The notes under the pieces were generated by a model, which did not search any database, was not told where the DNA came from, and saw only the letters and a list, made by a program, of their open reading frames with translations. Both the position numbers and the translations under genes were made by a program. Source: Planctomycetaceae bacterium (GTDB lineage: Bacteria > Planctomycetota > Planctomycetia > Pirellulales > Pirellulaceae). From it: 48,734 bases of DNA. Below, one piece after another: positions 19,490 through 26,427 of this stretch. Every line of letters starts with the position of its first letter. Position 1 is the stretch's first letter. Location: positions 1 through 48,734 of the forward strand of contig JAAEMV010000263.1 of the NCBI GenBank assembly GCA_024225195.1, read 5' to 3'.

Positions 19490-20131
19490 ATGGTTGACGA
19501 ACAACTGCTGCCAGTCCGCGACGAAATTGTAGACGCACTCAAACGAGACCGCGAAGAAGCCCTCGCCGAATACTTTTCAATAGTCCAAGGTCGTTTGAAA
19601 CGAATCGTAAACTTTCGCCTTGACTATCGCTTAAGCGGTCGGGTCTCTGAGTCGGATGTGATTCAGGAAACTTACGTTCGCGCCGCCAAACGAATCGACA
19701 GTTTCCTTGACAAGGACGACATGCCGTTTTTTGTCTGGCTGCGTTTAGAAGTCAATCAAAAACTACACGAAATCCACCGCCACCATTTTGGAGCAGAAAA
19801 AAGAGATATTCGAAAAGAAATCAAACTCGGCCAAACGAATGATTCAGGCAAAACTTCGATGGCGTTAGCCGCCCACATCGTCGCCCAACTGACATCACCA
19901 AGTCGCTTGATCGAACGCGCCGAGCAGATTTCAATTTTGGAAAAAACATTGGCAGAGATGAATGAATTAGATCGTGAAGTAATTGCGCTTCGACATTTTG
20001 AAGAACTTTCAAATATTGAAACTGCTGAAATTTTGGCGATCGAACCATCCGCCGCAAGCAAGAGATACTTGCGAGCACTGAAGAAACTTCGAGAGATCAT
20101 GGAAACGGCAAAGGGACACAATGGTAGCTAA
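19490..20131 (+). CDS. ECF-type RNA polymerase sigma factor
   Basis: The 213-residue protein is an extracytoplasmic-function sigma factor of a planctomycete type. Region 2 is seen as RLSGRVSESDVIQETYVRA with FFVWLRLEVNQKL. Region 4 is seen as MNELDREVIALRHFEELSNIETAEIL with the helix-turn-helix end SAASKRYLRALKKLREI. Regions 1.1 and 3 are absent, as usual in this class. The start is ATG at 19490. The stop overlaps the start of the Ser/Thr kinase gene by 11 bases, so the two are translated together. The kinase probably regulates this sigma factor or senses its signal; that link is common in planctomycetes but not shown here. Confidence 0.9.
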   Translation: MVDEQLLPVRDEIVDALKRDREEALAEYFSIVQGRLKRIVNFRLDYRLSGRVSESDVIQETYVRAAKRIDSFLDKDDMPFFVWLRLEVNQKLHEIHRHHFGAEKRDIRKEIKLGQTNDSGKTSMALAAHIVAQLTSPSRLIERAEQISILEKTLAEMNELDREVIALRHFEELSNIETAEILAIEPSAASKRYLRALKKLREIMETAKGHNGS

Positions 20132-23126
20132 CTCCCCTGACAATTCGCAAAGCGACCCTGAAATACTTGAACAGATCGTTGACCATTTCACCAACCGTCT
20201 CCGAGCAGGGGAACATCCTGCCATCGCTGAATATCAAGACCAGTACCCTAAATTCAGAGACGAAATTGAAGACTTGCTTGCATCCGTAGCAATGATCGAG
20301 CAGCTAAAATCTGATCCGACAAACTCACCCTCTAAATCGAGGTCGCTCGATGAAGTCTCCGGCCTCGATCGGATTGGGCCTTACAAGATCAAGGGAGAGA
20401 TTGGCCGCGGGGGAATGGGAGTCGTTTTCGAAGCAGTTCATGAATCGCTGGGAAAACGCGTCGCAATCAAAGTGATGCCAACGCCACTGATCAACAGTAA
20501 AAACTTCGTCGAGCGATTTAAAAGAGAAGCACAGTCGGCCGCAAGATTACACCACACAAATATTGTTAGTGTATTTGGGGTCGGCGAGGGCGAAGGGTAC
20601 CATTACTACGTGATGGACTTAATCGATGGACAGACACTAGGTGCCGTCATCAACGGGATCAATGCGTCCGATCCCATCAGCACGCGGATAGACCGTTATG
20701 AAACCCGATTGGATTTGAGCGGAGACCTCACCCTCGCGCTCAACGCCTCAACCCTCTTAGAAGAATCAACAGCCACATCGCACAAACAAAACGCGACGGA
20801 TTCCTCAACTGCCAACTCTCAAACTCGACCGATCAAGAAATCCAACCACTACCGCTGGGCGGCAAGAATCGCCGCAGACATCTCCGATGCGGTCGCCTTT
20901 GCTCACGATGCCGACCTCCTTCACCGGGACATCAAACCCTCGAATATTATCCTCGATCAAAAAGGCCAAGTCTGGATTACTGATTTTGGCCTGGCCAAAG
21001 ATACTCGCAGCGAAATCAATCTCACAAAAACCGGTGATGTCATCGGAACCCCCCAATACCTCTCCCCCGAATCGCTCGAAGGGAAATACGACTGTCGCAG
21101 TGAAGTCTACTGTATCGGCCTGACGCTCTACGAACTGGCTACGCTGCAGCCTGCATTTAACAATGGAACCACAGCGGAAGTCATCCGGGCGATTGCGACA
21201 TCCTCTCCACCATCACCTCGCAAAATCAGCCCCGACATTCCGATCGACCTCAGTACGATTATCGAAAAGTCAATTTCGAAAAATGCGGAAGAACGCTACC
21301 CTACGGTCAAGGATCTTCAACGAGATCTCATCGCGTTTGTGGAAGACCGTACGATCGCAGCGCGCCCACCGTCAACGATTGAAATGGTGAGCAAGTGGGG
21401 ACGTCGCAATCCGCTGGCAGCTTCACTTTCAGTCATTTCTTGCATCCTCTTGCTACTCGTCGCTGTCGCAACCTCCTTTGGCTATCTGTACACCAAAGAT
21501 GCACTGGCAAAAGAAGCAAAAAAATCTGCACTCTTAGAAGATCAAATCATAGAGACGGAGAAAGCTAACAATAAATTCCAGGCAGCTTACAAAAAGCAAG
21601 AAAGTGAATACCAACGTGCCGAACGCAATGTTGATATTTCCATTCAGGCGTTTGATCGGATGTTCAAACAACTCGTCGCCAAAGATTCAGCCAACTCAAC
21701 TGAACTTAGTATCGACGGACTTGAAGACCTGCAAGGAATCGAAACCTCGATTACGAAACAGGATGCTGTTTTCCTAGAAGAATTCCTTGCCTTTTACGAC
21801 AAATTTGCGACTAACAATTTTGACAACAAAGATCTGCAAGCTGAATCCGCTCGAGCCTTTCGGCGCGTTGCAAACATCTATCAATTACTTGGGGAAGTTG
21901 ACCGCTCTTTCGATGCTTACAAAAAATCAATCGAGTTGTACAACAAAGTGCTCGTTGAATCACCCGAATCCAAGGAATCGCTAATCGCTCTGGTGCAAAC
22001 GAAAAATGAACTCAGCCGAGCCTACCGACGTGACCAGAACCTTTCAGAAGCGATCGCTCAAAATCAAAATGCGATCCAACTTTTAAGAGATGTTCCTGTT
22101 GAGCAACTCGACAACCAATTGAAACTGGAACTGGCCAAGACATTCAACTCCATCGGCTCCAGCCTTGCCATCAACGCCGTCATCTATGACAGTCTTGAAG
22201 AAAGCCGTTTAGCCAAGAATGGAACGCCGGGATTCCACCGTCGTGCCGAAGGGCATCGACCGCCAACTTGGACCGAATTGTATCTCGAAAAAATGCGATT
22301 TCGGCGCCCTCCACCGCGAAAGGGGCAAGATCTAACAAAACGGCCCAATGCTAATCGACCGAACACTACCCGGCCTAATACTAACCGGCCTAAAGATGGT
22401 CCCGGCTTTCTCGCTCGCGGCCCCGGTAGATCCCGCAATCACGAAGCCAACCTAAGACTCTTACGGCGAAGCAAAGAAAATGCAGACAGAGCAATTACAA
22501 TCCTCGACCAGCTAATTGATGAGGAACCGAACAATGCCGATTATCGATCAGCCCGCGCTGAATGCTACTGTTGTCTCGCGTGGAGTTTTGTCGAACCCGA
22601 CCAAAAAGCTGCCTTAAATATGCGTAGCCTCGCAATTGAGGAACTCGAATCGTTAATCGCTGAATCCCCCGGCAACTCGAACTACCGCTACCGCCTCGCC
22701 ATGGCCTATTCACTGAGCAACCCATCAGATTCTCCAGAGAATCGAAAACTGATGCTGGAAAGCTCCATCAAAATAGCCAACGATCTCAAAACCCAATTCC
22801 CTAAAGTCCTGGACTATCACTATCTATTTATTTCCGTCCAGAACATATTGGCAGTCAATTTTGTTTCCGCCGGAAATCTAGACGAAGCATTAAAGGCGTT
22901 CCAAAACTCGAAAGATACTTTTGACGAGATTTTACAGCTGAACCCAGATGGCAGTGCGCTCCGGCAGACAGATCGTTTTTTCGGCGTGCAGCTTCGCAGC
23001 TTGGTCGAAGCGGCTGAGAAAAACGCTGATGAAAAAATCGCCCGGTCAGCCAAGGACATTCGCGAGGATTTGAATAAAATGATCTCCGAATATCGAATTC
23101 GTCAAGAATCAACAACTCAGAAGTAA
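20121..23126 (+). CDS. Transmembrane Ser/Thr protein kinase with TPR-like tail
   Basis: The 1001-residue protein has a short N-terminal helical region, then a kinase domain. The glycine-rich loop GRGGMG is at residues 95-100 and the Lys lies in VAIKVM. The catalytic loop HRDIKPSN starts at 268, DFG at 288, and the usual APE is SPE. Between the hinge and HRD there is an extra low-complexity stretch of roughly 55 residues compared with PknB-type kinases. One membrane segment lies near 431-456 (ISCILLLLVAVATSFGYLY). The outer part is helical with TPR-like repeats and an Asn/Arg/Pro/Thr-rich tandem repeat near 740-760. ATG at 20121 overlaps the sigma gene. A 7-bp hairpin follows the stop. It likely phosphorylates proteins in response to a signal; the target is unknown. 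Confidence 0.92.
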   Translation: MVANSPDNSQSDPEILEQIVDHFTNRLRAGEHPAIAEYQDQYPKFRDEIEDLLASVAMIEQLKSDPTNSPSKSRSLDEVSGLDRIGPYKIKGEIGRGGMGVVFEAVHESLGKRVAIKVMPTPLINSKNFVERFKREAQSAARLHHTNIVSVFGVGEGEGYHYYVMDLIDGQTLGAVINGINASDPISTRIDRYETRLDLSGDLTLALNASTLLEESTATSHKQNATDSSTANSQTRPIKKSNHYRWAARIAADISDAVAFAHDADLLHRDIKPSNIILDQKGQVWITDFGLAKDTRSEINLTKTGDVIGTPQYLSPESLEGKYDCRSEVYCIGLTLYELATLQPAFNNGTTAEVIRAIATSSPPSPRKISPDIPIDLSTIIEKSISKNAEERYPTVKDLQRDLIAFVEDRTIAARPPSTIEMVSKWGRRNPLAASLSVISCILLLLVAVATSFGYLYTKDALAKEAKKSALLEDQIIETEKANNKFQAAYKKQESEYQRAERNVDISIQAFDRMFKQLVAKDSANSTELSIDGLEDLQGIETSITKQDAVFLEEFLAFYDKFATNNFDNKDLQAESARAFRRVANIYQLLGEVDRSFDAYKKSIELYNKVLVESPESKESLIALVQTKNELSRAYRRDQNLSEAIAQNQNAIQLLRDVPVEQLDNQLKLELAKTFNSIGSSLAINAVIYDSLEESRLAKNGTPGFHRRAEGHRPPTWTELYLEKMRFRRPPPRKGQDLTKRPNANRPNTTRPNTNRPKDGPGFLARGPGRSRNHEANLRLLRRSKENADRAITILDQLIDEEPNNADYRSARAECYCCLAWSFVEPDQKAALNMRSLAIEELESLIAESPGNSNYRYRLAMAYSLSNPSDSPENRKLMLESSIKIANDLKTQFPKVLDYHYLFISVQNILAVNFVSAGNLDEALKAFQNSKDTFDEILQLNPDGSALRQTDRFFGVQLRSLVEAAEKNADEKIARSAKDIREDLNKMISEYRIRQESTTQK
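22341..22396 (+). repeat. Short in-frame tandem repeat in the kinase gene
   Basis: Four or so degenerate ~15-base units encode NRPNT/TRPNT/NRPKD-type pentapeptides inside the extracytoplasmic part of the kinase. Copies differ by base substitutions. Confidence 0.6.
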
Positions 23127-25341: not shown

Positions 25342-26427
25342 TCACCGACCCGACTCATTCCGTGGCGAACGCCTTGATCTGCCACGCTGGGATGGACGCA
25401 ACTCTTCTTTTGATAAATTCCCATCGGAATTTTTGTCCAATGTTTTCAATGACTTCGGAGCCCCTTCGATTTCATCAACCGACAATTTTCCATCTTTATT
25501 AAGATCTAAAGCGATGATAACGGGCATGTGCATGCTTGAACGACGAGCTACCGGTGGATTCACTGGGCTGTCGCCAGAATCACCTGCCGCCTCTCCTCCA
25601 AGTTCAACCCGAATTGCCGCCCGCAGTTCATCCGGTTTGAAACCCGAAGGGCCACGACCTCCCGCGTAGGCCACACGCCCATCTTTCCCAATTAAATACA
25701 ATCGATCGGGATGCGCTGCGTAATCGGTTCCAGTTTTGTCGTCTATTTTGTCGAGGAGCGTCGGGATTTTTATACCTAATGACTCTACAAAGTCCTTGGC
25801 TATCTGATTCCGCTCTTCCGTAGAAACGGGCTCTTCTACAATGGCATTGTACATTGGCCGATCGCCATCGATCGCATGAGCTTCCCGGCAGTAGACCATA
25901 AAAAACTGAACATCAGTGCCATACTCTTCAAACAACTTGTCCAGCTGACCAGCCGAACGAACAAAAGGCGGTCACGAACAGCTTCCAAAAATCAACGCCA
26001 CTGGCTTACTCCCTTGGAAGCTGGCAAGTTCGACTGTTTTTGATGGCTCATTCACGTAAGCGAGGTTAAACCCGGGAGCCACATCCCCTTTCACCGGAGG
26101 CGCGACACTCGAAGAATTCGAAGATCGTTTCTGCCGTTCTCGTGAAAACGGTTTGCGAGAAATTCCCCCGCCCCAATCCTTGGATGAAATGACTCCATCA
26201 CGGTTGACGTCAAGTCGCTGAAACTTCTCGGCTCCCCGAGAATATTCGGCCTCTGTAAGCTGGCCGTCTCCATTTGCATCATATTTATCTTGCAGGTAAT
26301 CCCAAACTTCAACACTACCACTGTTTCTATTCTGTTGCCCCTTCTGTTGCCCCAAAACTGAATCACCACCATAGGCAATCCCAACAAGAACCAATGACAA
26401 CCCTGTGATTGTTAGACGACGCTTCAT
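25342..26427 (-). CDS. Deiodinase-like selenoprotein with EF-hands; UGA read as selenocysteine
   Basis: Read through one in-frame TGA at 25972-25974, this is a 361-residue protein with selenocysteine at residue 152. A signal peptide (MKRRLTITGLSLVLVGIAYGG) points to export. EF-hand calcium loops lie at 50-61 (DANGDGQLTEAE) and 73-84. A thioredoxin-fold domain follows, with KPVALIFGSCS-U-PPF. The family's selenocysteine motif is GSCT-U-PPF. Further deiodinase hallmarks downstream are REAH (His 184), RLYLI, GGRGPSGF and ELRAAI. Two more EF-hands lie at 308-319 and 331-342, then a basic tail. The reaction is unknown; bacterial relatives may be thiol- or peroxide-active selenoenzymes rather than act on thyroid hormone. 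Conventional calling would split it into two genes (25972-26427 and 25342-25935). Confidence 0.88.
25936..25965 (-). promoter_or_regulatory. Candidate bacterial SECIS hairpin
   Basis: Starting 6 nt after the UGA in the mRNA, UUUGUUC pairs with GGACAAG (7 bp, two of them G-U). A GUUC bulge follows on the 5' side, then GGCU pairs with AGCU (4 bp, one G-U), closed by a GGUC tetraloop. The loop begins 21 nt after the UGA. Known bacterial SECIS elements have a short upper stem, bulged U and a G-rich apical loop at about this distance; E. coli fdhF has, from memory, the same GGUC loop. It would recruit SelB with Sec-tRNA. The fold was made by hand. Confidence 0.7.
25972..25974 (-). other. In-frame UGA, predicted selenocysteine codon
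   Basis: The TGA lies between Ser 151 and Pro 153 of the deiodinase-like protein. The frame is open on both sides for 151 and 209 codons, with matching family similarity on each side. Deiodinases carry selenocysteine at this exact place. Confidence 0.88.

Follow-up and report, generated by a model that had tools for sequence, protein, structure and literature searches.

A predicted selenoprotein gene with a deiodinase-like domain between EF-hand pairs in a Mariniblastus-like marine planctomycete

The locus and its predicted product

The window, as we call the whole 48,734-nt stretch of DNA analysed here, carries on its minus strand two open reading frames that lie in the same frame and, under the standard code, are parted by a single TGA; the upstream one encodes 151 aa (26427..25972) and the downstream one, which begins at an internal TTG, encodes 197 aa (25935..25342). 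The TGA occupies codon 152 and is the only interruption of a frame of 361 codons, and reading through it yields a product of 361 aa (MKRRL...FGSCS-U-PPF...EAH...DRLYLI...GGRGP...DELR) that is ended by a second TGA (25344-25342). On the basis of this translation, the Pfam matches and the orthologues, we predict a complete selenoprotein gene of 361 codons plus the terminal TGA (25342..26427, minus strand) that combines EF-hands with a deiodinase fold. The initial annotation had described two same-frame ORFs split by one TGA at the selenocysteine (Sec) position of the deiodinases, with the family motifs EAH, LYLI, GGRGP and ELR continuing past it, and this description holds in each part: translation reproduces the split frame, the TGA (25972..25974, minus strand; predicted Sec152 in FGSCS-U-PPF) aligns with the Sec position 170 of the type III deiodinase DIO3 and is spanned by a T4_deiodinase match, and all four motifs are present in the read-through product.

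A Sec-type signal peptide is predicted at about residues 1-27 (26347..26427, minus strand), recognised by eye from a basic start, a hydrophobic core and VLG before QQ. Two canonical EF-hand loops precede the UGA site, at residues 50-61 (DANGDGQLTEAE) and 73-84 (DVNRDGVISSKD) (26176..26280, minus strand), and two follow it, at residues 308-319 (DLNKDGKLSVDE) and 331-342 (DKNSDGNLSKEE) (25402..25506, minus strand); both pairs are supported by Pfam and by motif count, and the EF-hand_5 profile scores 61.5 bits over four stretches against a cut-off of 25.9. Between the pairs lies the T4_deiodinase domain of the thioredoxin fold, residues 114-271 (25615..26088, minus strand), where the search of the host's own genome also places its match. 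The joined protein is a clear member of this Pfam family: PF00837 gives one match across the TGA with 95.8 bits against a gathering cut-off of 27 (E 3.3e-27). Among solved structures the type III deiodinase 4tr3 is matched by phmmer over residues 136-271 (E 3.2e-20), and the second nearest by sequence is the type II iodothyronine deiodinase 9h48 (E 4.8e-13). The NCBIfam model NF038285 deiodinase_rel, which matches best over the catalytic domain (108-273), gives E 2.7e-57 with a score of 194.8 bits, which is under its curated cut-off of 250, and the Redoxin and AhpC-TSA profiles match as well (E 5.2e-8 and 9.6e-6). Since the AlphaFold2 model built from six sequences is poor (mean pLDDT 36.6), the thioredoxin fold is assigned here from sequence.

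The surroundings of the gene are shared by the orthologous loci L057, L060 and L061, which have in common a sigma-70-like factor on one side and, on the opposite side, a hypothetical protein of 236 or 226 aa and a methyltransferase-like gene, all named by eye; these shared neighbours support orthology and are silent on function. Elsewhere in the window (19490-23126, plus strand) a sigma-factor-like gene is followed by a large protein kinase-like gene, both likewise named by eye from their translations. An Rfam scan of the whole 48,734-nt window gave no family that reached its gathering score, and in one scan of viral contigs none matched the patterns searched. A second deiodinase/AhpC-like gene of the genome (L003; G000:C591, 31-1644, plus strand) likewise has a TGA in frame, within FGCLT-U-PPF; a 7-bp hairpin follows this codon, EF-hand motifs lie to either side of it, and there is an additional region at the C-terminus.

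The UGA codon in the family and the Sec machinery of the hosts

Searching 99 genomes with a threshold of E 1e-20 yielded 43 matches, which are distributed over 36 genomes and include that of the window; all 43 were read as DNA. The codon corresponding to position 152 is TGA in 37 and Cys in six of them; no other codon occurs, and homologues with an ordinary stop or a frameshift in place of Sec or Cys are absent from this set. All ten close orthologues (L028-L037; loci L057-L061 are not counted separately from L028-L032) share the internal TGA, and the terminal stop varies, being TGA in the window and L028 and TAG in L029, L030 and L033. When genomes were drawn from across the phylum and searched with PF00837, 135 matches came out, of which 120 contain exactly one TGA, 15 contain no stop at all and none contains TAA or TAG. 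Forty-two of these 135, including the window, were read as DNA, and the other 93 rest on stop counts; 92 of them contain one TGA, and the match in G368 starts past the site. Besides the window, the rows read comprise 27 with TGA, 12 with Cys, one distant homologue with Ser (L114) and one without an in-frame site (L115), in which the N-terminal half is absent in frame. The draw found T4_deiodinase matches in 108 of 392 genomes, which suggests that the family is common in Planctomycetota; the view that such bacterial selenoproteins are rare, taken in the initial annotation, does not hold for this phylum. Bacterial members have been published since 2005 (PMC1088965).

In total 85 family genes were read as DNA, and 80 of them could be placed by motif (65 Sec, 15 Cys); the five that could not, L093, L099 and L112 (Cys), L114 (Ser) and L115 (no in-frame site), stand outside the hairpin and residue counts. 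Within this set we distinguish a group A of 11 genes with FGSC[S/T]U (the window and L028-L037). Canonical EF-hand loops before the site are found in 31 of the 65 Sec genes, and 34 have no EF-hand motif on either side; both sides are occupied in ten, namely nine of group A and L003. The description of the domain as EF-hand-flanked is therefore borne out by profile and motif for the window's orthologue group, of which two-sided EF-hands, as predicted from motifs, are a mark, and it does not extend to the whole family. The third residue before the site is Asn in 11 of 15 Cys forms (e.g. L047, L048, L076, L080 and L084) versus Ser in 64 of 65 Sec forms, and thus changes together with the Sec or Cys at the site.

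The region past the TGA (209 codons) is under purifying selection in comparison with each of five orthologues, with Nei-Gojobori dN/dS values of 0.091, 0.123, 0.089, 0.089 and 0.119; before the TGA the same five comparisons give 0.07-0.25. In two of the five pairs dS exceeds 1 and is near saturation, which makes their ratios rough.

The assembly that holds the window (6.43 Mb in 1063 contigs, 94% complete, 3.7% contamination) has as its nearest named relatives Mariniblastus sp. and Pirellulaceae metagenome assemblies, at 78-94% protein identity. On contigs other than the window's it contains tRNA-Sec (67.4 bits, cut-off 47; called tRNA-SeC(tca) by ARAGORN), selA (592.8 bits, cut-off 267.9), selB (365.9 bits, cut-off 242.25) and selD (257.4 bits, cut-off 125), all above cut-off. 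The cut-off matters here, because weak matches are common in 14 control genomes (tRNA-Sec, selB and selD in 14 of 14, selA in four) and matches over it are few (tRNA-Sec in five, selA in one, selB and selD in two each). The selD match lies inside a frame of 740 aa (L025; G000:C223, 164-2386, minus strand) whose N-terminal half resembles, by eye, an NADH dehydrogenase-type flavoprotein; fusions of this kind occur in other bacteria. Across hosts, selA was found in 29 of 32 chosen genomes with a Sec form versus five of 13 with the Cys form only (Fisher p 0.0007, a value that overstates independence because the Sec genes are mutually related). The 32 were chosen by hand, 26 from the 99-genome search and six from the phylum-wide draw, and the three in which selA was not found are 81-92% complete. 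Three unplaced genomes stand outside the comparison, G236 (Cys) and G166 (Ser), in which selA was found, and G323 (Cys), in which it was not; adding G323 and G236 brings the Cys side to six of 15.

A predicted SECIS hairpin and the reading of the UGA

Publications are cited here from excerpts of their text. A small apical loop containing G is a feature of the bacterial SECIS element (PMC1088965), and a candidate hairpin is found past the UGA at 25939..25958 (minus strand), with an 8-bp stem (nucleotides 17-24/29-36, the T of TGA being 1) and the loop GGUC (nucleotides 25-28). In group A the paired cells of the stem 18-24/29-35 amount to 100%, versus 14-61% when it is slid by 1-3 nt. Column shuffles of this group score 97.2 +/- 1.1, and 13 of 1000 reach 100%; they score high because the group varies little, and its covariation is thin, with a two-sided change in one pair. 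In a group B of 17 other Sec relatives (16 distinct) with FGS[Y/F]TU, the stem 14-20/24-30 is closed by a loop of three bases and has 92% of its cells paired, versus 66.8 +/- 3.1 in shuffles (0 of 1000 reach it) and 29-51% in slid controls, with two-sided change in five of seven pairs. When all 54 Sec genes outside group A are taken together, the group B stem is paired in 69.3% of cells and in 52.0 +/- 1.9 in shuffles. For the 15 Cys homologues this place gives 40.0%, little different from shuffles of their own (35.6 +/- 3.1, with 112 of 1000 attaining the observed value); the place of the group A stem gives 41.9%. The hairpin occurs in at least two registers, the loop occupying nucleotides 25-28 in group A and 21-23 in 14 of the 17 genes of group B.

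A best stem of at least 7 bp is present in 46 of 65 Sec genes versus three of 15 Cys genes, where the stems lie elsewhere; four of the 65 (L040, L062, L066 and L070) have no stem over 4 bp. Measured against synonymous recoding, the mean folding z is -1.39 for Sec genes (n=65) and -0.41 for Cys genes (n=15; Mann-Whitney p 1e-4, with the same caution about relatedness), and 18 of 65 Sec genes versus one of 15 Cys genes are singly at p <=0.05. For the window gene by itself, the hairpin is not significant against synonymous shuffles (z -1.5, p 0.085), a single-sequence fold of the 64 nt past the TGA is no better than shuffles (z -0.27), and within the first 52 nt a different pairing has the lowest energy. 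The case for the putative SECIS element is carried by the family and is weak for the window taken alone.

We propose that the gene, which belongs to a Mariniblastus-like marine planctomycete, almost certainly encodes a functional, UGA-decoded selenoprotein; Sec would be inserted at UGA152 by SelB and Sec-tRNA, aided by the hairpin. The two truncated ORFs that the standard code yields, together with the existence of Cys homologues, could also be taken to indicate a pseudogene, that is, an ordinary Cys-type gene broken by a nonsense mutation or a sequencing error. This explanation was rejected as having a negligible chance of being right: it is contradicted by the conservation of the TGA, which 37 of the 43 family genes, taken from separate genomes, have at the corresponding codon, and it fits poorly with a dN/dS of about 0.1 downstream, with the complete lack of TAA and TAG among the 135 phylum-wide matches and with a hairpin tied to the Sec form. 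The frame would likewise be open if UGA stood for an ordinary amino acid throughout the genome, or were suppressed by a tRNA other than tRNA-Sec. Genome-wide reassignment is unlikely, however, because TGA ends six of the 27 window ORFs of at least 200 aa (a mechanical list), and it ends the deiodinase-like gene itself; moreover, the assembly contains the Sec pathway genes and a tRNA-Sec whose anticodon is UCA, and neither Trp nor Gly takes the place of TGA or Cys in any of the 43 family genes. With TGA in use as a stop in the window and the Sec pathway at hand, reassignment was rejected too, and we regard both it and suppression by another tRNA as scarcely credible.

UGA decoding competes with termination in general, and the codon might on that account be a regulated stop. 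The main product would then be the EF-hand part of 151 residues, and the full-length protein would be made only when selenium is plentiful. The N-terminal part alone would indeed have a predicted signal peptide and an EF-hand pair, but such a truncated product would be without the catalytic domain, and the 34 of 65 Sec genes that have no EF-hand motif on either side still keep the UGA, which makes a regulated stop very improbable.

The active site, its possible chemistry and known relatives

Alignment with DIO3 places its Ser167, Cys168, Thr169 and position 170 at Ser149, Cys150, Ser151 and Sec152, and its Tyr197, Glu200, His202, Arg225 and Arg275 at Tyr179, Glu182, His184, Arg206 and Arg258. 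In the same alignment Trp207, His219 and Cys239 of DIO3 are not kept, their places being taken by Asp189, Pro200 and Ile221, and Phe258 is replaced by Pro240; Pro at this position is also found in DIO1, whose pocket is wider (PMC11592359). Of the 80 placed family genes, all have the equivalents of Tyr197, His202 and Arg225 of DIO3 and 79 have that of Glu200; an Arg corresponding to Arg275 occurs in 30 of the 65 Sec genes. Cys at the DIO3 168 position is found in 12 of the 65, including all 11 of group A, and is a possible resolving residue. Mutations of Glu200, Tyr197, Thr169 and Ser167 in Dio3 lower or abolish activity, and Thr169Ser costs about 60% (PMC7506546). The kept Ser/Tyr/Glu/His network and the loss of Trp207, His219 and Cys239 suggest a catalytic core that is deiodinase-like and a substrate loop that is not. 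The name deiodinase-like in the initial annotation is thus right as a statement of homology; with Pro, Asp and Ile as the equivalents of His219, Trp207 and Cys239, thyronine chemistry is doubtful, and iodothyronine deiodination by the window protein appears unlikely.

We suggest that the protein would be exported by its predicted signal peptide, would bind calcium through its four EF-hand motifs and would fold into a peroxiredoxin-like thioredoxin domain with a deiodinase-type active site made up of Ser149, Cys150, Ser151, Sec152, Pro-Pro-Phe, Tyr179, Glu182, His184, Arg206 and Arg258. By analogy with the family, the selenolate probably attacks a soft electrophile in the cell envelope to give a selenenyl intermediate, which Cys150 may resolve as an Se-S bond that a thioredoxin-like envelope partner would then reduce; calcium probably stabilises or tunes the protein.

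Two kinds of enzyme come into consideration. An envelope Sec peroxidase or thiol-disulfide reductase that shares only ancestry with the deiodinases stands at about even chances. It agrees with the Redoxin (E 5.2e-8) and AhpC-TSA (E 9.6e-6) matches and with the redox function proposed by Zhang 2005 (PMC1088965), but by itself leaves unexplained why the deiodinase-type Tyr, Glu and His persist in 79-80 of 80 genes. That persistence, along with the SCxU motif, would be natural in an exported enzyme that reductively dehalogenates iodinated or brominated phenols from marine algae, with a chemistry like that of the animal deiodinases, given that mutation of those residues lowers or abolishes Dio3 activity (PMC7506546) and that Pro240 recalls the wider-pocket DIO1 (PMC11592359). 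We consider this rather doubtful, however, since the equivalents of His219 and Trp207 are missing in the window's group, only 30 of the 65 Sec genes have Arg where DIO3 has Arg275, other lineages have Cys forms, and no neighbour gene, judged by eye in the window and at the L057, L060 and L061 loci, hints at halogen metabolism. We lean slightly towards a peroxide or disulfide as the substrate, over a halogenated aromatic. A bolder proposal, that the Mariniblastus group possesses a calcium-gated exported selenoenzyme which reductively dehalogenates iodinated or brominated aromatics of marine algae, is a long shot; were it true, the EF-hand pairs would clamp the catalytic domain from both sides with calcium as a switch, and the enzyme would be a free-living bacterial counterpart of animal thyroid-hormone chemistry. 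The family appears to be common in this phylum, keeps most of the residues that the animal deiodinases need and has Cys counterparts also on offer in host genomes, so the ancestral function of the deiodinase fold is directly testable. Annotation may meanwhile split many such genes at the UGA.

Bacterial deiodinase-like selenoproteins have been known as sequences for two decades, and the excerpts of the publications cited here name no substrate. Sec and Cys members were described from the Sargasso Sea by Zhang, Fomenko and Gladyshev in 2005, who proposed a redox role on the ground that thyroid hormones are not to be expected in bacteria (PMC1088965). Those PF00837 proteins resemble the window protein in having Sec or Cys at one site, a bacterial SECIS past the UGA, the T4_deiodinase profile and marine bacterial origin; they are, in the excerpt, metagenome sequences without named hosts. 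For deiodinase-like proteins a Global Ocean Sampling table lists the values 22, 12 and 21, the first of which we take as the number of Sec sequences (PMC2398784). Reviews of 2022 (PMC9312934) and 2026 (PMC13188914) include the family, and the latter, whose available text has no mention of EF-hands, states that the functions of such predicted selenoproteins are largely unknown; both give the motif as UxxC, whereas the window protein has CxU followed by PPF. Planctomycete selenoproteins have been reported from Planctomycetes on Porphyra, in an article whose main text, as excerpted, leaves deiodinase unmentioned (PMC4807772), and among titles and abstract openings of the open-licence literature we found no description of an EF-hand-flanked deiodinase architecture in planctomycetes. 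Selenoprotein N (SEPN1; PMC7474598), a calcium-sensing eukaryotic protein, likewise joins an EF-hand to a Sec redox centre and is comparable by analogy only.

The animal DIO1-3 (with DIO3 as 4tr3 and DIO2 as 9h48) share with the window protein FGSC[S/T]-U-PPF, the Tyr and Glu-Ala-His over about 136 aligned residues, and the residues equivalent to Arg225 and Arg275. The window protein differs from them in its predicted signal peptide and EF-hands, and the window gene in a predicted SECIS inside the frame; the SECIS of animal deiodinases sits in the 3' UTR. Less usual in the predicted protein are its C-x-U motif and the EF-hands that flank the domain at either end, features with which the window gene adds to a family already known in bacteria a member of unusual domain layout.
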